From Methylomonas sp. UP202 (GTDB lineage Bacteria > Pseudomonadota > Gammaproteobacteria > Methylococcales > Methylomonadaceae), in assembly GCF_029910655.1 (NCBI RefSeq), contig NZ_CP123897.1, positions 930,001 to 994,000 of the forward strand: a stretch of 64,000 nt of DNA. The letters run 5' to 3'. Within the stretch, counting starts at the first letter, position 1. The number at the start of each line of letters is the position of its first letter. This document shows, piece after piece, positions 39,855 to 49,290 of the stretch. The translations under genes and the position numbers were made by a program. The notes under the pieces were generated by a model. That model saw only the letters and a program-made list of their open reading frames with translations, ran no database searches and was not told the origin of the DNA.

Positions 39855-40292
39855 ATTCGGTGGCGGCCGGACCGGCCGGCGAATCGATAGGCGCGGTGTG
39901 TCGAGTTTGGTTTGAACTGCTTAAATTTTTCGCTTGAGTAGCCGCCGACGCTTAAGGTTCGAATAGCTGCGGAACGGTCTGATATTGCGCCGATCCGGGC
40001 GTTGGAAACCTGAGATAGGTGAACGTTTCGAGTTGGAGTTTGTGAAATCGCTCACTTTGTCCTATAGCTTGAACTACAATTCCTAGCCGTTAGGTATACG
40101 GCTTGGCTTGAGTCACCGAAATTCGAGTTTTGTTGTTTTGTGGAGTCACCAACCGATCGCCAAGCTTCCAGATATTCCAATTTTTTTCAGTTAGTTGTAG
40201 TTCATCTGACGGCGTTCTCGCTATTAAGGGCGGAACGTTTTTCTTAAGTGACGCCGCTGTTTTTGTTTTCAAAAACGCGTAGGAGTAACACT
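39855..40292. other. Noncoding gap, nothing recognised
   Basis: 438 bases between the ABC ATPase gene and the HAF-repeat gene. No convincing reading frame, RNA gene or repeat is seen. A short minus-strand frame at 40090-40272 lacks a ribosome site and any known motif. The last part carries AGGAG at about 40280, the ribosome site of the next gene. Confidence 0.5.
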
Positions 40293-41429
40293 ATGCAAAA
40301 CGCTAAGACTCTACTGACTTTGTTGCTTGGGCTTTCGCTGCAATCCACGCCCGTTCAAGCAGCTACATACACTGTTACGGACCTAGGTACGCTGGGTGGC
40401 ACTAGTAGTTCCGCCACGGCCATCAATAACAGCGGTCAAGTGGCGGGTCATTCCCGGACGGCCGATCGAACTAATCGCGCTTTTTTGTTTCGAAACGGCG
40501 TTATCAGCGATATAGGCGTCTCCGGCAGTTTTGGCAGCGCCGCCACCGGTATTAACGATAGCGGGCAAATCGTTGGCGATAACAGTGTGACGATGACGGC
40601 TTCTCGCGGCTTTCTTTACAGTGGCAATGGGATAACCGAATTCGGCACCTTGGGCGGCACGAATAGTGCCGCTTCGGCCATCAACAATGCGACGCAAGTG
40701 GTGGGCTGGTCCAATACCGCGGACGAGGCCCAACATGCGTTTATTTACAGTGACGGCGTGATGACCGATTTGGGCGCCTTGGGCGGAACTTCGAGCGAAG
40801 CAAGCGACATCAACGACAGCGGGCAAGTCGTTGGTTGGGCTCAAACTGCGAACGGCGAAATACATGCGTTTGCGTACGACAACGCCACGATGACTGATCT
40901 GGGTACGTTAGGTGGTCCCACCAGTGGCGCCACGGGCATTAACGGCAGAGGGCAAGTGGTGGGCTACGCGAATGTACCCGGCGAACTTTATGGGCACGCC
41001 TTCCTATACGACCGCGGCGTCATGAACGACCTTGGCAGTTTATATGGTATCGGTAGTATCGCCAACGACATCAACGATAGCGGGCAAATCGTCGGTAATG
41101 TCTTCACCACCGGTGATTTGGAGGAGCATGCCTTTATTTACGATAACGGCGTCATGACCGATTTAAACCGCCTAATCGCGGCCAATTCCGGTTGGAACTT
41201 GGTCACAGCCTTGGCCATTAATGATCGGGGACAAATTGTGGGTTCGGGTTTCAATCCGCAACATGAATCCCACGCGTTTTTATTGACACCCACTGCTGTT
41301 CCCATTCCGTCCGTCACCTATCTATTCGCTTCCGCTTTGCTGGGCCTAGGATGGTTAGGAAGGCCGCGTAGGTGGTCCGGGCGAAGCGGCCCGGACTCCG
41401 GTTGCTTTGCGGTCTTGCGTTTGATTTAG
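40293..41429 (+). CDS. HAF-repeat surface protein with PEP-CTERM-like tail
   Basis: 378 residues from ATG 40293, behind AGGAGTAAC. Signal peptide TLLTLLLGLSLQSTPVQAA. The body holds seven or so repeats of about 40 residues of the HAF type, each with AINNSGQVVG followed by HAFIYSDGVMTDLGTLGG, predicted to form a propeller-like fold. The C-terminus VPIPSVTYLFASALLGLGWL plus GRPRR is a PEP-CTERM-like sorting signal. Normally such proteins end there; this one runs on for 18 residues through an inverted repeat (41375-41396), so an original stop may have been lost. Function unknown. Confidence 0.8.
   Translation: MQNAKTLLTLLLGLSLQSTPVQAATYTVTDLGTLGGTSSSATAINNSGQVAGHSRTADRTNRAFLFRNGVISDIGVSGSFGSAATGINDSGQIVGDNSVTMTASRGFLYSGNGITEFGTLGGTNSAASAINNATQVVGWSNTADEAQHAFIYSDGVMTDLGALGGTSSEASDINDSGQVVGWAQTANGEIHAFAYDNATMTDLGTLGGPTSGATGINGRGQVVGYANVPGELYGHAFLYDRGVMNDLGSLYGIGSIANDINDSGQIVGNVFTTGDLEEHAFIYDNGVMTDLNRLIAANSGWNLVTALAINDRGQIVGSGFNPQHESHAFLLTPTAVPIPSVTYLFASALLGLGWLGRPRRWSGRSGPDSGCFAVLRLI
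41375..41396. repeat. Inverted repeat inside the 3' end of the HAF gene
   Basis: Perfect 8-bp arms GTCCGGGC (41375-41382) and GCCCGGAC (41389-41396) around GAAGCG. It falls within the last codons of the HAF-repeat gene. It could act as a weak terminator stem, but no T-run follows, or be a small inserted palindrome. Confidence 0.45.
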
Positions 41430-41480: not shown

Positions 41481-43073
41481 TCAATAAAACACCCTGAACA
41501 ACCTTTGAATCTGTTCGAATTCGAACAAATACGGTTGGGCCACGTCGCGGTTGGCGGCGACCACCAGCAAGTCGTGGGAGAACACCGAGGTGTTGTACCA
41601 GTTGAAGCTGCCGTCGATGACGATGTAGTCGTCGATGACGCAGTATTTGCTGTGTATTGGCGAGTAGGGCACCGGCAGATCGTCTTGGCCGTACACCAAG
41701 CCGACCCGGATGCCGGCGTCCTTCAGGCGCTGCACGGCCGGCAACAGCGGGCGGGCCAGTTCGTCGCGCATTGGCCGCTCGACGCCGATCTTGCCTTGGC
41801 GGGCCAGATGACCGTTCAGCAACAGTTGCACGTCCACGCCGCGATCGCGGGCCTGGATCAGCGCCGACACCACGCTGTCGTGGTGGTCGCCGAGCAGGTC
41901 GCCGATCAGAAACAGACAGACCTTGATCGAGCGGCGGGCGCGGTGGATTTCGGCGAGTATCGCGTGATGCGGCCGGTAGACCTTGCCGTTGGCCATGGTT
42001 TGCCGGCCGAAGGTGTACAGCAGATTGAACGGGCTGAGCGGGTCGATGCCGTATTTTTGGATGACGCCGCCGCGCTGGCTTTGGAAGATGTTGTCCAGCA
42101 GCCGGCACACGCCCTGCGAATGAAAGCTCATCCCCGATTCCCAGTTGGCCCACCAGCGGTCGAAGGTGATGTTGAACGAGCCGAGGATGCAGTCCTCGTC
42201 GTTGAAGATCACGAACTTGGTGTGCATGTCCGGCTCGACTTCGATCAGATGATGCTTGGGGGTGCAGAACACGCCGACCAATTCGATGCCGGCCCGTTTC
42301 AGGCGTGCGTAGTTGTCGCTGTTGGTCAGCGTCATCTTGCGCCAATCGACGACGCATTGCACCAGCACGCCCTGGCGGCTGGCGTGGATCAGGTGGTTGA
42401 TGAAGTCGTGGTCGTCTATGCAATCGACGCTGACCTTGATCGTGCAAAGCCGCCGCGGCTGATGATGCTTGGCGGCGATGGTCTTGTCGATGTGGTCGTG
42501 GATGTAGCGCTTGGGATGGTAGGGGTGGTGCTGTTGCCCCTTGGTGAATTTCGGCGTCAGATTGAGTGTGTCGAAACGTTGGGAGTACCAGTCGGCGTCG
42601 CTTTGTAATTGCTTGGGATCGAGTTCGTGGGCACGATAATGGTTGGGCGTCGCCCAATGGTCGCCGATGTGGCGATGCTGCGGTTCGGGATCGCTGGGTT
42701 GCTGGCCGTCCATGAAGATGTATTCCTGGCGGGAGGCGATCGAATGTTCGCCGAGATGGACGATGAACGCAAACTTGATGCAGTGAATCTTGCCGAACTG
42801 GCGCGAGTAGGGCAGCACGTAGAAGTCGCGGGTGCTGCGTTTATGGCGGTTCCATTCGATGTCGTAGGCGTCGGTATCGACGATATAAGTCTCGCAAATC
42901 TCGGCCCGGTACACGCGCAAAATCACTTTCAAATTGGCCGCGACGCCGTGACTCATCTCGAAATCGAGCTTGCCCCAGCGGATGTCGAAGCTTTCCCGAA
43001 AATCATTGCCGCGCGGAAAGTAACCGCCCAGTTTGCCGAACACCGGCCTAGCGTAATGTTCTGCTGCTTGCAT
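41481..43073 (-). CDS. Phospholipase D-fold protein with two HKD motifs
   Basis: 530 residues, no signal peptide. The N-terminal domain (about 15-150) is strand-rich and unrecognised. Two PLD catalytic domains follow: the first HKD is HTKFVIFNDEDCILGSFN (about 265-282), the second HSKYCVIDDYIVIDGSFNW (about 490-508). Each has the Ser-Phe-Asn that follows an active HKD motif, so one active site across the two halves is expected. PLD-fold enzymes include phospholipases, cardiolipin synthases and nucleases; the substrate here is unknown. It lies 36 bases downstream of the exonuclease/phosphatase-fold gene on the same strand. Confidence 0.85.
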   Translation of the reverse strand: MQAAEHYARPVFGKLGGYFPRGNDFRESFDIRWGKLDFEMSHGVAANLKVILRVYRAEICETYIVDTDAYDIEWNRHKRSTRDFYVLPYSRQFGKIHCIKFAFIVHLGEHSIASRQEYIFMDGQQPSDPEPQHRHIGDHWATPNHYRAHELDPKQLQSDADWYSQRFDTLNLTPKFTKGQQHHPYHPKRYIHDHIDKTIAAKHHQPRRLCTIKVSVDCIDDHDFINHLIHASRQGVLVQCVVDWRKMTLTNSDNYARLKRAGIELVGVFCTPKHHLIEVEPDMHTKFVIFNDEDCILGSFNITFDRWWANWESGMSFHSQGVCRLLDNIFQSQRGGVIQKYGIDPLSPFNLLYTFGRQTMANGKVYRPHHAILAEIHRARRSIKVCLFLIGDLLGDHHDSVVSALIQARDRGVDVQLLLNGHLARQGKIGVERPMRDELARPLLPAVQRLKDAGIRVGLVYGQDDLPVPYSPIHSKYCVIDDYIVIDGSFNWYNTSVFSHDLLVVAANRDVAQPYLFEFEQIQRLFRVFY

Positions 43074-43109
43074 CTGTGATTGCCTACCTCGAACTAGCGA
43101 TGAAACGGG

Positions 43110-44606
43110 TTAACGGGGCTCGAACTCGAAAAGATAACCGCAATGATCGGAAACCCTGCCGTAGTCCTGTTCGGTAAACACCGCCCTGGCGGCGACGGCC
43201 TTGAGCGCGCCGCTCTTGTTCATGAAAATGTAATCGATTCGATAGTCTTCCGCCAAGTAGTTATGCCAGTGCGGATCGTTGACCCGGTAGATTTGTTGGT
43301 ACAAATTGGGCGCGCTGGCCGCCAAATATTGATCGCGGTATTGGTTGCCTTCGACGATCAAGCGGTAGCCGATCGAGCCGGCCGCGACGTTGAAGTCGCC
43401 GCACAGCAGAGTGCCGCAGACCTCGCTGTCGCGGCGGGCGTCGGCCCAGGCCGCCAAACGGCGGAATTGGCTTTCGAACCCGTCTTCCCACCAGCTCAGA
43501 TGCGCCGAGAATACGTCGATGCGGCCGAAGCGCGGCAGCGTGACGTTGGCGGCGACTACTTTGCGAGAGTGTATGCTGTAGACGTCGCTGCTGTCGGACA
43601 CGTAGCGCGATTCCTGGCGTTCCAGCGGATAGCGGCTGAGGATGGCGACCCCTTCCCGGTAGCGGTCGAAACCCAGATGCGACCAATCGCAATGCAAGTG
43701 AAACGGTCGCGATAGCCGCGCGTTAATGATGTTGGCGGCGTTGGACGGCCAGTCGCCGTAGCCGTTGTTCCAATGCTCGGCGACTTCCTGCAAGCACACC
43801 AAATCGGCCCGCCAGTCGTCGATGGCGCGGGCGATTTGGCTGAATTTGCGGTCCTGATCGTCTTCCTGATAACAATGCAGATTCAACACCAGCACCCGTA
43901 GCGGTGGTCGGCTGAGCCGGTAGTTTTGGCCGGCGCGATTGTCCCAGTAGCTGCGGGACCGGGTGTGGGCGGCGATGCAATATTCGATGCGAAAGGCTTC
44001 GCCGATCCGCAAGCGAGTGTGCCAAAGCCGGGCCGGCTTCAGGCCGGTCGCGGGTCCCGCGACCGGTTTGCGGCGGCGGCCGGCCGCCTTGCACGGTGCT
44101 TGCCGGGTGCGCCGCCAACCGTCGCCGCTCCAATGCACGCTGACATGATCGATGTCCAGCCTTGCGTCGGTCGCGACCACGACAGGCCATTCGACGGTTT
44201 CCAGATCCAAGGCCGTCGGCAAGGTCAAGGTTTGCAAGACCAAATCGTCGGCCAGATGATGGCCGCTGCCGGCGCGGGTTTGATAGTCGCGGCCTAGATT
44301 ATTATCCCAGGCTTCGCCGTCCGGCCAACGGTAGTGCAGCGCGAACCGGATCCCGCCCGGTAAGGCCGACCCTGCCTCGGCGCCGAACTCCGCCACCGCA
44401 TGCCAAACTTCGCCGCCTTCCGGCGTTTTGGTCAGATAGTTCGCGGGAAGGCGTTGCCAGACGCCGTCGCGGCCGCACCAGACCACATCGACGGTTTTGC
44501 GGTAGTCCAGATCGGCGACCAGGATCAGGAAGGTTAAGGTTTGACGGCGCGCGCCGGCCCGGCCGCCGGCGGTATTGCTGGTGTAAAGCAAGCGTATCGG
44601 GTCCAT
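43110..44606 (-). CDS. Endonuclease/exonuclease/phosphatase-fold protein with two CBM21-like modules
   Basis: 498 residues, no signal peptide. Two modules lead: about 5-97, ending EAWDNNLGRDYQ, and about 118-232, ending SYWDNRAGQNYRL. The WDNNxGxxY ending is the hallmark of CBM21 glycogen-binding modules; the match is by eye. The catalytic domain (about 235-498) has all EEP blocks: LNLHCYQEDD, CLQEVAEHW, FSAHLSWW, CGDFNVAAGS, RIDYIFMN and VSDHCGYL. Members cut phosphodiesters or phosphomonoesters with Mg2+. Neighbouring glycogen genes and the modules together suggest a glycogen-bound hydrolase; the substrate is not known. Confidence 0.78.
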   Translation of the reverse strand: MDPIRLLYTSNTAGGRAGARRQTLTFLILVADLDYRKTVDVVWCGRDGVWQRLPANYLTKTPEGGEVWHAVAEFGAEAGSALPGGIRFALHYRWPDGEAWDNNLGRDYQTRAGSGHHLADDLVLQTLTLPTALDLETVEWPVVVATDARLDIDHVSVHWSGDGWRRTRQAPCKAAGRRRKPVAGPATGLKPARLWHTRLRIGEAFRIEYCIAAHTRSRSYWDNRAGQNYRLSRPPLRVLVLNLHCYQEDDQDRKFSQIARAIDDWRADLVCLQEVAEHWNNGYGDWPSNAANIINARLSRPFHLHCDWSHLGFDRYREGVAILSRYPLERQESRYVSDSSDVYSIHSRKVVAANVTLPRFGRIDVFSAHLSWWEDGFESQFRRLAAWADARRDSEVCGTLLCGDFNVAAGSIGYRLIVEGNQYRDQYLAASAPNLYQQIYRVNDPHWHNYLAEDYRIDYIFMNKSGALKAVAARAVFTEQDYGRVSDHCGYLFEFEPR

Positions 44607-44669
44607 GCCGGGCTCCTGGTGCGATGGGCTGGCGAAATCCGGAGCGGCGGTCCGGGACGCGATGCCGGC

Positions 44670-46259
44670 TTAGCCGGCGTAATCGCGAAAGTCAATGTCG
44701 GGGAAAATATCGTCCATGATCTCCAGTGCTGTCAAATATCGCTCGTCGATGCGATTCTTGCGGATCGCGTCGTGCAGATAATTGAAGCGGGCCAGATGGT
44801 CGGCGATCCGCTTTCTGGCGTAATCGACGGTGGTGCCGGCCTTCATGATGAAGGGCCAGTCGGAGGCCTGCGCCAGCAGCAACGAGCGGGCGGCCTGATT
44901 CAGCGCGCGTTCTTGCGCCGGCGTGATCTTGAGGCCGTTCAGATCGTTGGCGAGCTTTTCCATTTCGGCGGCGGCCCGGTGCAGCAGCGGATAAATCCAG
45001 TCGTTGCTTTCGTTCAGCCAATAGCTCGAATAGCCGTGTTCACCCCAGCTCGACGCGGCCGGTCGGCCGACACCGTGGCGTAGCGGTTGCTGAAGGTAGT
45101 CGGAGCAGGCGGCCGTCGTCAAGCCGCTATCCGATTCGGCCGCCAACCGTAACACCTGTTCCAGCCAAAGCGGACCCTCGTACCACCAATGGCCGAACAG
45201 CTCGGCGTCGTAGGGGGCGACAATGATCGGCGCTTGCGACAGTTCGCCATCCAGCGCGGCGATTTGCTCGCGGCGGCGGCGCACGAAGTCGGCGGCGTGC
45301 TGTCTGGCCTTGGCGTGGGCCTGAGCGGGTTGATAGGCTTGCTTGGGTTGGTTCTGTCCGGTGATACGGTAATACTTGATACCGGTGTTGACGCGGGTTT
45401 CGCGGTCCAGGATGTAGGGAGCGACGTACTCCAGCGGCAGGTCGAAGCCGATGTCCCGGTAATACTCGCGGTAATCCGGATCGCCGGGATAACCCTGCTC
45501 CGCGCTCCACACTTGGCGCGACGAGGCCGGATCGCGACCGAAGGCGGCGACGCCGTTTCCGCAATCCAGCGGCGCGTAGACGCCCAGGCCCGCCGTATTG
45601 GCGGCGGTCATCAGCGCATGGCTGTCGACGAAGAAATGGTCGATGCCGGCGGCGGCCAATTCGTCTTCCAGGCCCGGATAATAGCCGCATTCCGGCAGCC
45701 AGAAGCCGCGCGGCCGAAAGCCGAAGCGCGACTCGAAACAGCGCAGGCCGACGCCGATTTGATTGCGGACAGCGGTCGGACTGACGTTGAGCAAGGGCAG
45801 AAAGCCGTGAGTGGCGGCCGTGGTCGTCAATTCCAGATTGCCGGTGGCGTGATGAAACTGAAATGCCGGCAACAATTCGCAACGATAGCGCTCGCGGTAG
45901 CGGTACAACGCGTCTTGATATTGCCGCAGATAAAACTCGGCCAAGGCCTGAAACTGGGGCAGGCCGCGGGTGCGGGCCACCTCGCGCTCGGCCAGTTCCA
46001 CCCGGCCTTGCAAATAGTGCAAGTAGCGGTTTTGCAGCAAGGCGTCGCCCAGCATCGTGATCAAGGTCGGCGACAGCGACAGGGTCAAGCGGTAGGCGAT
46101 CCGGTCGTAATGCAGCCGCTCCAATACCCCCAGCAAGGGTAGATAACATTCGGTGATCGCCTCGAACAGCCAGTTTTCCTCGAAGAAACTGGCGTGTTCG
46201 GGGTGATGCACATAGGGCAGATGGGCGTGCAAAACGATGGCGAGATAGCCTTTAGTCAT
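44670..46259 (-). CDS. GH57 1,4-alpha-glucan branching enzyme
   Basis: 529 residues. GH57 proteins of this type move alpha-1,4 glucan segments to make alpha-1,6 branches in glycogen. The opening KGYLAIVLHAHLPYVHHPE is diagnostic; the catalytic Glu lies in GFWLPECGYYPGLE (near 185) and the Asp in VAPYDAELFGHWWYEG (near 355). The C-terminal part (430-529) is the helical DUF1957-type domain. Length is right for the family. Its ATG overlaps the DUF4912 gene by 8 bases, so both are translated together. Confidence 0.92.
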   Translation of the reverse strand: MTKGYLAIVLHAHLPYVHHPEHASFFEENWLFEAITECYLPLLGVLERLHYDRIAYRLTLSLSPTLITMLGDALLQNRYLHYLQGRVELAEREVARTRGLPQFQALAEFYLRQYQDALYRYRERYRCELLPAFQFHHATGNLELTTTAATHGFLPLLNVSPTAVRNQIGVGLRCFESRFGFRPRGFWLPECGYYPGLEDELAAAGIDHFFVDSHALMTAANTAGLGVYAPLDCGNGVAAFGRDPASSRQVWSAEQGYPGDPDYREYYRDIGFDLPLEYVAPYILDRETRVNTGIKYYRITGQNQPKQAYQPAQAHAKARQHAADFVRRRREQIAALDGELSQAPIIVAPYDAELFGHWWYEGPLWLEQVLRLAAESDSGLTTAACSDYLQQPLRHGVGRPAASSWGEHGYSSYWLNESNDWIYPLLHRAAAEMEKLANDLNGLKITPAQERALNQAARSLLLAQASDWPFIMKAGTTVDYARKRIADHLARFNYLHDAIRKNRIDERYLTALEIMDDIFPDIDFRDYAG

Positions 46260-46935
46260 CGGCGTCTGAAGTCGGAGCCGCGGGATCGGCGGCCAGGGTT
46301 GAGGAAGCCGCGAGCTGCAGCGGCAACATGAATTGCGCGACGCTCGGCGTCAGATCGTGATTGCCGTCGGGTAACGCGGCGGTCGCGGCATCGTTGGAAA
46401 TCGCCAGCGGACTGAATTGCCGGTCGCCGGTCAAGCGGCCGAGTACGGCCCGGTAGTGGGCGGCGGCGCCGCCGAGGTATTCGGGCAGGACGATGCGTTG
46501 CCGCGAGGCGTCGGCGGCTACCGGCACGTCGAACCAGACCGGCGCGCTGGCCGGGGGGGCCGGCGAGTCGGCGGCCGGGTTTGTTGCTGGGGCTTGCCGG
46601 AAGATGCGCAGCGTCAGCGGGCTGGATTCCGGCTGGTTCGGCAAAGTCGCGGGCGGAGGAGCGTCCAATTGCCAAAATGCGTGCAGGTGGCGGGGGTCTA
46701 TCGGCAACAGCAGCAGACTGGCTTGACTGCCGCGCGCGCGCGGCGCGTATTCGCGGCTGATTTGTTGACTGATTTCCAGCAATTCGCTGGGCGAGAATCC
46801 GCCGGTCGGCGCGCGCCGAACCCCGGATTCGTAGCGGCGCGGCGCGAATTGGCGGCTGATGGATAGACTGATTTCGCGTAATTCTTCGGCCGATAGCGGG
46901 GAGCGACTAGGAGTAGGTGACTGCGAAAAAGCCAT
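46252..46935 (-). CDS. DUF4912 protein
   Basis: 227 residues from ATG 46935; a TTG at 47016 in frame would add 27 residues. There is no strong ribosome site for either. Two copies of a short helix motif open the protein (SAEELREISLSISRQFAPRRY and SPSELLEISQQISREYAPR), probably a duplicated segment. The DUF4912 domain (about 80-195) is marked by LLPIDPRHLHAFWQLD. DUF4912 is often found beside GH57 enzymes and may be a regulatory or carbohydrate-binding module; that is an association, not a known role. Divergent from glgX. Confidence 0.78.
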   Translation of the reverse strand: MAFSQSPTPSRSPLSAEELREISLSISRQFAPRRYESGVRRAPTGGFSPSELLEISQQISREYAPRARGSQASLLLLPIDPRHLHAFWQLDAPPPATLPNQPESSPLTLRIFRQAPATNPAADSPAPPASAPVWFDVPVAADASRQRIVLPEYLGGAAAHYRAVLGRLTGDRQFSPLAISNDAATAALPDGNHDLTPSVAQFMLPLQLAASSTLAADPAAPTSDADD

Positions 46936-47118
46936 CGGCGACGATAAGGAATCGGATTGTTGATTTCGACACGCTGTCAACTGCGTGAATTGTGCGGTAT
47001 TTGGCAAAATCGGCAAATTGCGAAGACTCTACTCGTTGTCGCCTATTTACGCAAGGCATAGGCCGGATCGCCCGAATTGCAGTAGAATCGGGGCTTTCGG
47101 ACTTTTTCGGTCAAGGAA

Positions 47119-49290
47119 ATGCATAAACAATACCACTTGAAGTCGGGTAGTCCTTATCCCCACGGCGCCAAAGTCGGCGAGGGGGGCGTCAATTTTTCGA
47201 TTTCCAGCCGTCATGCCACTTACGTGGAGCTGTTGCTGTTCGCTCAGTCGGACAGCGAAAAGCCGTTCCAAATTATTCCGTTAACCACCGATAAGCACCA
47301 CACCTTTTTTTCCTGGCACGTGTTCGTCGTCGAATTACCGGTCGGCACCTGGTACGCCTGGCGCTTGGACGGCCCGTCGCAAACGCGGGAAACGGGATTG
47401 CGCTTCGACCGCGACAAGTTGTTGCTCGATCCCTGGGCGCGAGCGGTCAGTGACAAGTTGTGGGTGCGCGGCGCGGCCTGCGTGCCCGGCGACAACAGCT
47501 ATCACGCGATGCGCGGTGTCGTCGTCGACGACCATTACGATTGGGAAGGGGATACGCCGCTGTCGATACGCAGCGAGAAAGTCATCGTCTACGAATTGCA
47601 CGTCGGCGGTTTTACCCGGCATCCGTCGGCCAAGGTTAAGCATCCGGGGACCTTTCTGGGGCTGATCGAAAAAATTCCCTACCTGAAAAAACTGGGCATT
47701 ACCCACGTCGAATTGTTACCGGCGATGGCCTTCGACGAACAGGACGTGCCGCCGCATACCGCCGAGCGCGGTTTGACCAACTATTGGGGTTACAGTACCC
47801 ACAGCTTTTTCAGCCCGCATCCGGGCTATTGCGTGACGCCGGAACAGGGTACTCACATTAGGGAGTTTCGCGATCTGGTCAGGGCGCTGCACAAAGCCGG
47901 TATCGGCGTGATCATGGACGTGGTGTTCAACCATACCTCGGAGGCCGGCAGCGATGGGCCGGTCATCAATTTCAAGGGGATTACCGGCAACAGCTTTTAT
48001 CTGACCGACAAATACGACAAAAGGCTATTTCTGGATTACACCGGTTGCGGCAATACCGTCAACGCCAACCATCCGTTGGTGACTAACTTCATCATCACCT
48101 GCCTGGAATATTGGGTGCGGGAGATGCACGTCGACGGTTTCCGCTTCGATTTGGCCAGCGCCTTGGCGCGCGGCGAGGACGGCAGCGTGTTGCAGGACCC
48201 GCCGTTGGTGTGGGGCATCGAGCTGTCTCAGCAATTGGCCAAGACCAAACTGATCGCCGAGGCTTGGGACGCGGCGGGCCTGTATCAAGTCGGTAATTTC
48301 CCAGGCTACCGTTGGGCCGAGTGGAACGGACGCTACCGCGACGCGATTCGCCGCTTCGTCCGCGGCGACGGCGGCATGATCAACGAAGTGGCCACCCGCA
48401 TCTGCGGCAGCAGCGATCTCTACGAGCATCAGCATCGCTTGCCGATCAGTGGCATCAACTTCGTGACCTGTCATGACGGCTTTACGCTGCACGATCTGTT
48501 TAGTTACAACGACAAACACAACGAAGCCAATGGCGAGGAAAACCGCGACGGCTGCAACAACAATCTCAGTTACAACTGCGGCGTCGAAGGGCCGACCGAC
48601 GATCCCGACATTTTGGCCGTGCGGCGGCGGCGCGCCAAGAACGCGTTGGCGATTCTGCTGCTCAGCCACGGTGTGCCGATGTTGCTGGCCGGCGACGAAT
48701 TTTTGAATAGCCAGGGCGGCAACAACAACGGCTATTGCCAGGATAACGAGCTGAGCTGGTTGAACTGGGAGGACGCCAAGAAGAATGCCGATGTGCTGCG
48801 CTTCGTGCAGACCCTGATCAAACTGCGCAAGCGCCACACCGCGCTGATGCGCCGCCGCTTCCTGACCGGAAGGCCGCTGGAAGGTAAGACGCTGCCGGAT
48901 ATTCACTGGTACGACGTCGATCAGATGCATCCGCCGGCCTGGACCGATCCCGAGGCGCGCTTTTTGTCGTACACGCTGTCCGCGTTGGCCAAGGAGGAAC
49001 CGGATTTGCACGTGGTGATGAATATGGCGAGCGAGGATGTGCTGATCGATTTGCCCAAAATCGAAGGCAAGGCTTGGTGTTTGTCGATCGATACCGCGCT
49101 GAGTTCGCCGGCCGACGCCGTCGAACTCGCCAATCAGTCGCCGCTGTCGCTACAGCAATACCGGGTGCGCGGCAATTCGGTGGTGGTATTGGAGAATACC
49201 CGTTTTTCCAACGAAGGCGGCGGCGAGTCCGTGTCGCATAAAGCATCCGCCTTTCTGACCAAATTGACCGGCATCCGTTTGATCGATTAG
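47119..49290 (+). CDS. glgX: Glycogen debranching enzyme GlgX
   Basis: 723 residues, normal for GlgX. It hydrolyses alpha-1,6 branches left by phosphorylase. An N-terminal CBM48 domain (about 8-105; SPYPHGAKVGEGGVNFSIS) precedes the GH13 barrel. Catalytic residues: nucleophile Asp in GFRFDLASALAR, Glu in LIAEAWDAAGLY and Asp in FVTCHDGFTLHDL. A C-terminal beta-domain ends the chain. It is divergent from the DUF4912-branching enzyme pair; the 183-base gap probably holds promoters for both directions. TTTTTCGGTCAAGGAA, with AAGGAA, precedes the ATG. Confidence 0.95.
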   Translation: MHKQYHLKSGSPYPHGAKVGEGGVNFSISSRHATYVELLLFAQSDSEKPFQIIPLTTDKHHTFFSWHVFVVELPVGTWYAWRLDGPSQTRETGLRFDRDKLLLDPWARAVSDKLWVRGAACVPGDNSYHAMRGVVVDDHYDWEGDTPLSIRSEKVIVYELHVGGFTRHPSAKVKHPGTFLGLIEKIPYLKKLGITHVELLPAMAFDEQDVPPHTAERGLTNYWGYSTHSFFSPHPGYCVTPEQGTHIREFRDLVRALHKAGIGVIMDVVFNHTSEAGSDGPVINFKGITGNSFYLTDKYDKRLFLDYTGCGNTVNANHPLVTNFIITCLEYWVREMHVDGFRFDLASALARGEDGSVLQDPPLVWGIELSQQLAKTKLIAEAWDAAGLYQVGNFPGYRWAEWNGRYRDAIRRFVRGDGGMINEVATRICGSSDLYEHQHRLPISGINFVTCHDGFTLHDLFSYNDKHNEANGEENRDGCNNNLSYNCGVEGPTDDPDILAVRRRRAKNALAILLLSHGVPMLLAGDEFLNSQGGNNNGYCQDNELSWLNWEDAKKNADVLRFVQTLIKLRKRHTALMRRRFLTGRPLEGKTLPDIHWYDVDQMHPPAWTDPEARFLSYTLSALAKEEPDLHVVMNMASEDVLIDLPKIEGKAWCLSIDTALSSPADAVELANQSPLSLQQYRVRGNSVVVLENTRFSNEGGGESVSHKASAFLTKLTGIRLID

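Follow-up and report, generated by a model that had tools for sequence, protein, structure and literature searches.

Conserved pairing of a CBM21-bearing EEP-fold enzyme with a PLD-fold protein in methanotrophs and Candidatus Accumulibacter: a candidate unit for removing phosphate from glycogen

The 64,000-nucleotide window analysed here, positions 930001 to 994000 of contig 1 of a 5.68-Mb Methylomonas genome, carries two neighbouring minus-strand genes that constitute a real and conserved pair, one encoding a protein in which two CBM21 modules precede an EEP-fold hydrolase domain, the other a PLD-fold protein. What is new is a putative EEP phosphatase, related to maltose 6'-phosphate phosphatase (MapP), that is joined to candidate CBM21 docking modules and accompanied by a PLD partner. 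We propose that the pair serves inside the cell as a unit that removes phosphate from stored alpha-glucan, and consider the case for and against this proposal to be about evenly balanced. Both genes lie where an earlier reading of the bare sequence (the original prediction) had drawn them, and their parts are as follows.

43110 to 44606, minus strand: EEP protein of 498 residues with the order CBM21-CBM21-EEP, the proposed glycogen-docked phosphatase (Pfam, predicted model, profile).
44241 to 44606, minus strand: CBM21 module 1, residues ~1–122 (21.6 bits alone; matches PPP1R3A and the starch-binding domain (SBD) of Rhizopus glucoamylase).
43905 to 44240, minus strand: CBM21 module 2, residues ~123–234 (29.6 bits; matches PPP1R3B and PPP1R3C).
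43113 to 43904, minus strand: EEP catalytic domain, residues 235–498, kin to MapP and PDB 3teb (sequence and fold match).
41481 to 43073, minus strand: PLD-fold protein of 530 residues, the proposed phosphodiesterase partner (Pfam, conservation).
42669 to 43073, minus strand: N-terminal beta-sandwich of the PLD protein, residues ~1–135, with a CBM34/CBM21-like fold and no sequence match.

On the evidence of profile comparison, the two modules are genuine CBM21 domains, kin to the subunits that target protein phosphatase 1 (PP1) to glycogen. The original prediction had recognised them by a hallmark motif, and a Pfam search of the EEP protein bore this out, with CBM_21 (PF03370) matching in two stretches at 47.1 bits (E=3.3e-12), where the cut-off is 28.9; scored singly, module 2 passes this cut-off, its best stretch being residues 154–231, and module 1 fails it. 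When E values up to 1 were admitted, Pfam returned EEP and CBM_21 for this protein and otherwise a weak CBM_25 alone. By hhalign each module is a relative of the other (probability 97%, E=4e-11), and a profile of the EEP protein made from 32 homologues matched, in the PDB, PPP1R3B (4.3e-6), PPP1R3C (8.5e-6), PPP1R3A (9.4e-5) and the Rhizopus glucoamylase SBD (4e-4). In the window protein the hallmark takes the form WDNNLGRDY in module 1 and WDNRAGQNY in module 2. Across 106 distinct sequences the first module retains its W in 105, its D in 103 and its N in 105; for the second module the counts are 96, 104 and 90. CBM21 is scarce in the class, being matched at E 0.001 in 2 of 369 genomes and above the cut-off in our own genome only. 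Another class member encodes a 510-residue protein (L055:965-2494, minus strand) with a C-terminal CBM21-like stretch of 24.3 bits, under the cut-off, and with no further Pfam match at E 0.001.

The catalytic part of the same protein matches Exo_endo_phos (PF03372) at 67.7 bits against a cut-off of 24.5 (E=1.6e-18), and N242, E274, H369, D404, N406, D487 and H488, which we take to be the EEP catalytic residues, are invariant in 106 of 106 sequences. In the predicted model (predicted local distance difference test, pLDDT, 86; predicted template-modelling score, pTM, 0.80) it superimposes on 3teb with Z 30.7 and a root-mean-square deviation of 2.8 over 251 aligned residues, the next PDB entry reaching Z 24.7. 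This structure, from Leptotrichia buccalis and named merely an EEP family protein, is a close relative of MapP: a MapP homologue likewise found 3teb as its sole PDB match at E up to 0.01 (E=3.3e-37). It was also the sole EEP structure matched by the sequence of the window domain at E <0.001, a threshold at which the available PDB entries for TDP2, exonuclease III, sphingomyelinase, nocturnin, CNOT6L and mannosyl-6-phosphatase went unmatched; a single-sequence PDB search added one EEP chain, that of Angel homologue 2, at E 0.06.

As judged by these comparisons and by a plasmid survey, the MapP group comprises the nearest relatives of the EEP domain that have a named function. Against 72,556 plasmid records the domain gave 61 matches, from Enterococcus, Lactococcus, Leclercia, Enterobacter, Cetobacterium, Priestia and Niallia. 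One of these matches, in E. faecalis, carries the annotation maltose 6'-phosphate phosphatase and is 25.9% identical over 98% (E=2e-7). Seven of the 61 neighbourhoods were inspected, one of them, from Niallia, being a stretch without annotation; in each of the six annotated ones a phosphotransferase system (PTS) IIBC gene stands immediately upstream of the MapP-like gene, with GH65, alpha-glucosidase or pgmB genes nearby. When six CBM21-EEP domains are aligned with three paralogues and five MapP-like proteins, the blocks common to CBM21-EEP and MapP-like proteins (NxHxxxE, EG, H-x-(S/G)-WW, GD(F/L)N and SDH-x-G) run through the whole domain, and Enterococcus faecalis MapP belongs to the same EEP sequence subgroup, with the same catalytic blocks, as the window protein. 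MapP acts on maltose 6-phosphate and has been described in a malT-mapP arrangement, according to passages of PMC3737437, so that this kinship makes the removal of phosphate from the 6-position of alpha-glucans the candidate activity. It is the strongest new support for the glucan phosphatase role that the original prediction had suggested, a role that remains a predicted one. MapP-like proteins are, however, single-domain proteins of ~260–275 residues encoded beside a sugar PTS, whereas the window protein combines its EEP domain with a pair of CBM21 modules and is encoded beside its PLD partner in a glycogen locus; because no maltose PTS adjoins its gene there, we have not assigned it as MapP.

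The EEP domain also matches five unannotated records of Listeria or Enterococcus phages or of a phage without a named host, and one Eleftheria plasmid was matched by the whole EEP protein and not by the domain alone. A stand-alone paralogue of 280 residues, lacking CBM21 and 42% identical, is encoded elsewhere in the genome (G000:C1:4996476-4997306, corresponding to L139:7471-8310, minus strand), and matches of this type occur in 19 of 61 genomes (our own and 60 relatives). Its scanned neighbours in our own genome are LexA, T2SSE and a ThiI/NFACT-type protein, and the scanned neighbours of such paralogues included no glycogen or maltose gene, barring one glycosyltransferase in one genome. The EEP match in genome G469 (9e-61) is probably a paralogue of this kind.

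The partner protein matches PLDc_2 in two stretches (121.5 bits, E=2.8e-35). A standard PLD enzyme has two HxKx4D motifs, and the original prediction had credited this protein with two intact ones. That claim failed: motif 1 reads H284-x-K286-x4-N291, followed by D292, with Asn in place of the Asp in all 107 sequences, and we therefore speak of a PLD-fold protein and not of a standard HKD enzyme. Motif 2, H474-x-K476-x4-D481, is intact, H474 being replaced by Asn in 1 of 107 sequences. The broader statement that all active-site blocks are present in both proteins thus stands for the EEP residues and for PLD motif 2, and falls at PLD motif 1. Conservation of the PLD catalytic part is exceptional, the median identity to the window protein being 83% over the other 106 distinct sequences. 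The EEP domain stands at 64% and the CBM21 modules 1 and 2 at 40% and 30%, with 105 other sequences compared. At the gene level the medians are 77% for PLD (n=120), 68% for GH57 (n=65), 51% for EEP (n=121) and 78% for GlgX (n=43, matches below 40% dropped); matches scoring no more than 150 bits were excluded, as was the almost identical locus L056, and the pooled sets behind these figures partly repeat the same genomes.

The predicted model of the PLD protein is poor (pLDDT 56), with block values of 63–86 over residues 1–140. The best folds for its PLD domain are NucT, Nuc, Zucchini and PLD3 (Z 8.3–9.7), nucleases that share with it the PLDc_2 domains and H-x-K motifs and from which it differs by the extra N-terminal sandwich and the Asp-to-Asn change in motif 1. 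The fold of that sandwich resembles the N-domains of TVAII and cyclomaltodextrinase (Z 8.5), of neopullulanase (7.8–7.9) and the CBM21 of PTG (8.3), yet a purple acid phosphatase reaches 8.4 as well, and identification of the sandwich as CBM21 at the level of sequence was rejected (hhalign probabilities of 0.6% and 0.17% against the two modules). Pfam, NCBIfam and PDB searches yielded no close named relative of the PLD protein. In one strain a partial second PLD C-terminus (L065:6602-6829, also G007:C18:6593-6829), covering residues ~452–530 at 80–83% identity, lies downstream of the intact gene and is probably a duplication remnant.

The genomic setting of the pair connects it with glycogen. 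The genes beside it in the window are:

44670 to 46259, minus strand: GH57 1,4-alpha-glucan branching enzyme (model matches).
46252 to 47016, minus strand: DUF4912-like protein (Pfam 25.6 bits, under the cut-off of 29.4).
47119 to 49290, plus strand: GlgX debranching enzyme, divergent (697 bits, cut-off 641).

The assignment of a glycogen locus consequently holds as regards the upstream GH57 gene and the divergent GlgX gene, whereas its DUF4912 component stays below the Pfam cut-off. The minus-strand order is DUF4912-like, GH57, EEP, PLD, with an 8-base overlap between the first two genes and gaps of 63 bases between GH57 and EEP and 36 bases between EEP and PLD; Shine-Dalgarno-like sequences precede both EEP and PLD, with AGGAG before the EEP ATG. 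No signal peptide was seen by eye at the start of either protein, which makes a cytoplasmic location likely. Among the named loci, which are the best 80 of 159, EEP lies adjacent to and upstream of PLD in 75, and GlgA, GlgB (GH13), GH57 or GlgX is present in 62, in agreement with the expectation that the two genes would be found mostly with glycogen genes. Two orders are found repeatedly, DUF4912-GH57-EEP-PLD, in many cases with GlgX, and GlgB-GlgA-EEP-PLD (the identity of GlgB and GlgA was established by Pfam in L118 and L051), and both place the pair near a branching-enzyme gene.

The two genes also travel together across genomes, a point that the original prediction had raised as a check. 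Among 237 genomes of the family, 154 have both, 5 have EEP only, 7 have PLD only and 71 have neither; the Fisher p of 1e-45 ignores relatedness and is not to be taken literally, and several of the genomes with a single gene are incomplete. In the set of 61 genomes, 32 have a full-length EEP protein, the same 32 have PLD and 29 have neither, two of these 29 showing weak partial EEP matches. Within the fetched stretches PLD adjoins EEP in 25 of the 32 carriers (our own genome included) and not in 7: it is clearly apart from EEP in four genomes (G006, G008, G018 and G027), and in G014, G019 and G029 the contig stops 1.4 to 2.8 kb past EEP. Because PLD stands apart from EEP in some carriers, their co-occurrence is not a matter of linkage alone. 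Named carriers include Methylomonas (Methylomonas sp. LW13 has both genes, at locus L058), Methylobacter, Methyloglobulus, Methylomicrobium, Crenothrix and the endosymbiont of Gigantopelta aegis; in the wider class our own genome was the sole one of 369 that the PLD profile matched at E 1e-30. We considered glgA as a marker of carriers and set it aside, since it is near-universal in the family (220 of 237 genomes) and hardly separates genomes with PLD, 154 of 161 of which have it, from those without, where the count is 66 of 76.

A second lineage with the pair is Candidatus Accumulibacter, a glycogen-cycling, phosphorus-removing organism, in which it was found on a Candidatus Accumulibacter conexus contig (L128). 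PLD is present in 17 of 28 genomes of the genus, with EEP adjacent in 16 of the 17 and the seventeenth copy at a contig end. In a FastTree phylogeny the 17 PLD copies form one clade (support 1.0) within the methanotroph sequences, a nesting suggestive of transfer; the sister group of the clade is weakly supported (0.53, midpoint root). The neighbours in L128 are a carbamoyltransferase, phosphoglycerate kinase, triosephosphate isomerase and homoserine dehydrogenase. The carbamoyltransferase gene lies directly upstream of EEP in L174:4678-6438 and belongs to an open reading frame cluster seen in 10 of the 17 loci, its identity having been established in L128 and L174.

If the proposed unit exists, it might operate as follows. 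The two CBM21 modules would, by analogy with their homologues, dock the EEP enzyme on glycogen, where its catalytic domain would hydrolyse phosphate monoesters, the likeliest target being C6 of glucosyl residues in glycogen or in maltodextrins made at the particle. The PLD protein would most likely cleave phosphodiesters attached to the polymer, such as Glc-P-Glc bridges, leaving monoesters for the EEP enzyme; this is the weakest step of the scheme. By keeping the polymer free of phosphate the pair would safeguard branching and debranching, in line with its place beside branching-enzyme genes, and passages of PMC13011383 report that phosphate lowers the glucan affinity of branching enzymes of several organisms. 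The phosphate itself could come from side reactions of synthases or from a writer not recognised here. An extended form of the proposal, in which EEP phosphatase and PLD diesterase act sequentially in a quality control of glycogen phosphate that arose independently of laforin and operates in methanotrophs and Candidatus Accumulibacter, is offered tentatively, as something that could be true and somewhat more probably is not.

Such a unit would have counterparts among known systems. The CBM21 modules of PPP1R3A/B/C are related in sequence to those of the window protein, and these subunits bring a protein phosphatase to glycogen in trans, whereas here module and hydrolase share one chain. Laforin and SEX4/LSF2 would work alike if the proposal is right, combining a carbohydrate-binding module with a phosphatase that acts on glycogen or starch. 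Laforin is a dual-specificity phosphatase with CBM20, as stated in passages of PMC13011383, and its catalytic domain is not homologous: the window protein combines the EEP fold with CBM21 and has no dual-specificity phosphatase domain in Pfam at E up to 1. Bacteroides Bt3783 (PDB 4c1r), a mannosyl-6-phosphatase by its entry title, shares the EEP fold (Z 23.9) and was not matched by the window sequence at E 0.001. No description of the pair was found in the open-access literature in a search that was not exhaustive, and the sections consulted of a 2024 review of prokaryotic alpha-glucan enzymes mention neither CBM21, laforin and phospholipase nor 'maltose 6'.

Several observations weigh against the phosphate-removal proposal. 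The identity of the EEP domain to MapP-like proteins is just ~24–28%, and EEP enzymes, whose range of substrates can shift, comprise nucleases and lipases as well as phosphatases. None of the four glycogen genes was present in 18 of the 80 named loci, 10 of which have less than 1.5 kb of upstream sequence; EEP was not adjacent to PLD in L068, L070, L072, L123 and L127, and the few scanned neighbours of the last four are non-glycogen genes. No Accumulibacter-genus locus (0 of 17, with 9.5–18.5 kb taken) contains GlgA, GlgB, GH57 or GlgX, which counts against a simple operon argument and confines the predicted association with glycogen genes to the methanotroph loci. Glycogen storage is evidently possible without PLD, which 66 of the 220 glgA-bearing family genomes lack. 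As to the source of phosphate, a profile search found no GWD-like glucan dikinase among the PPDK_N proteins of our own genome, all three of which have the domain N-terminally, as in PpsA/PPDK (one was read just to the end of its stretch), and in passages of PMC13011383 phosphate on bacterial glycogen is a matter of speculation.

The substrates of the EEP enzyme might instead be small molecules that glycogen turnover sets free, either phosphorylated maltodextrins or hexose phosphates, the CBM21 modules serving for placement and glycogen itself being unphosphorylated. This is a minor but serious possibility, in keeping with the MapP kinship of the catalytic domain and with a disaccharide phosphate as the MapP substrate in passages of PMC3737437; against it, the presence of two modules of glycogen type in a single enzyme suggests a polymeric substrate, and there were no PTS genes among the six window proteins scanned. 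That glycogen serves as a scaffold or reservoir for tethered nucleases or lipases, with EEP and PLD cutting nucleic acid or phospholipid, we regard as unlikely. The nucleases and phosphodiesterases that head the PLD fold list, and the presence of TDP2 and sphingomyelinases among the EEP fold neighbours (Z ~20–24), would agree with it; the sequence of the EEP domain, by contrast, falls with the MapP/3teb group and matched no solved nuclease at E <0.001, and the NCBIfam exodeoxyribonuclease III model scored 15.7 bits on the EEP protein, far under its cut-off of 99.

It is less likely still that the PLD partner is a transferase, for instance one that decorates glycogen with phosphate or with a group linked by a phosphodiester, and that the EEP enzyme is its eraser. 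PP_kinase_C does match the PLD protein above its cut-off (28.2 against 25.8 bits), PPK1 is among its fold neighbours (Z 7.8–8.3), and the tight co-occurrence, the strong conservation of the PLD catalytic part and the failure to find a dikinase-type writer among the PPDK_N proteins would all suit a writer–eraser pair. The PP_kinase_C match is limited, however, to residues 188–242, a common part of the PLD fold, full PPK1 models score far under their cut-offs, and the comparison of folds depends on the poor PLD model. A part in anti-phage defence, with PLD resembling DrmC of DISARM, is barely credible: PADLOC DrmC matched part of the PLD protein at 36.8 bits and NCBIfam DrmC (NF038319) scored 43.5 bits, the latter far under its cut-off of 133, while the EEP protein had no PADLOC match at E 0.01 and the pair occurs family-wide with glycogen neighbours. 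We rejected this reading, for which there were just partial DrmC-type and MkoB/MkoC PADLOC matches to PLD and none to EEP.

Among other features of the region, a DUF3466 repeat protein gene at 40248–41429 is convergent with the PLD gene, and the C-terminal tail of its product resembles what we take to be a PEP-CTERM sorting signal. Scans for promoters (5 sites, 2.3 expected) and terminators (6 sites, 6.8 expected) were not used. The compared proteins of the Methylomonas koyamae R-45383 locus (L056) are 98–100% identical to those of the window, and the PLD protein of Methylomonas koyamae strain SM2 (L060) is just 87% identical.

Glycogen is of relevance both in engineered methanotrophs and in Accumulibacter, and a phosphate-removal unit acting on it would be of applied interest in engineered methanotrophs and in phosphorus-removing Accumulibacter. 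The gene pair renders the question of bacterial glycogen phosphorylation, raised in passages of PMC13011383, testable in Methylomonas sp. LW13. If the phosphate-removal proposal is true, phosphate on glycogen would not be solely a eukaryotic matter, and bacteria would have evolved a laforin-like eraser from a sugar-phosphatase fold.

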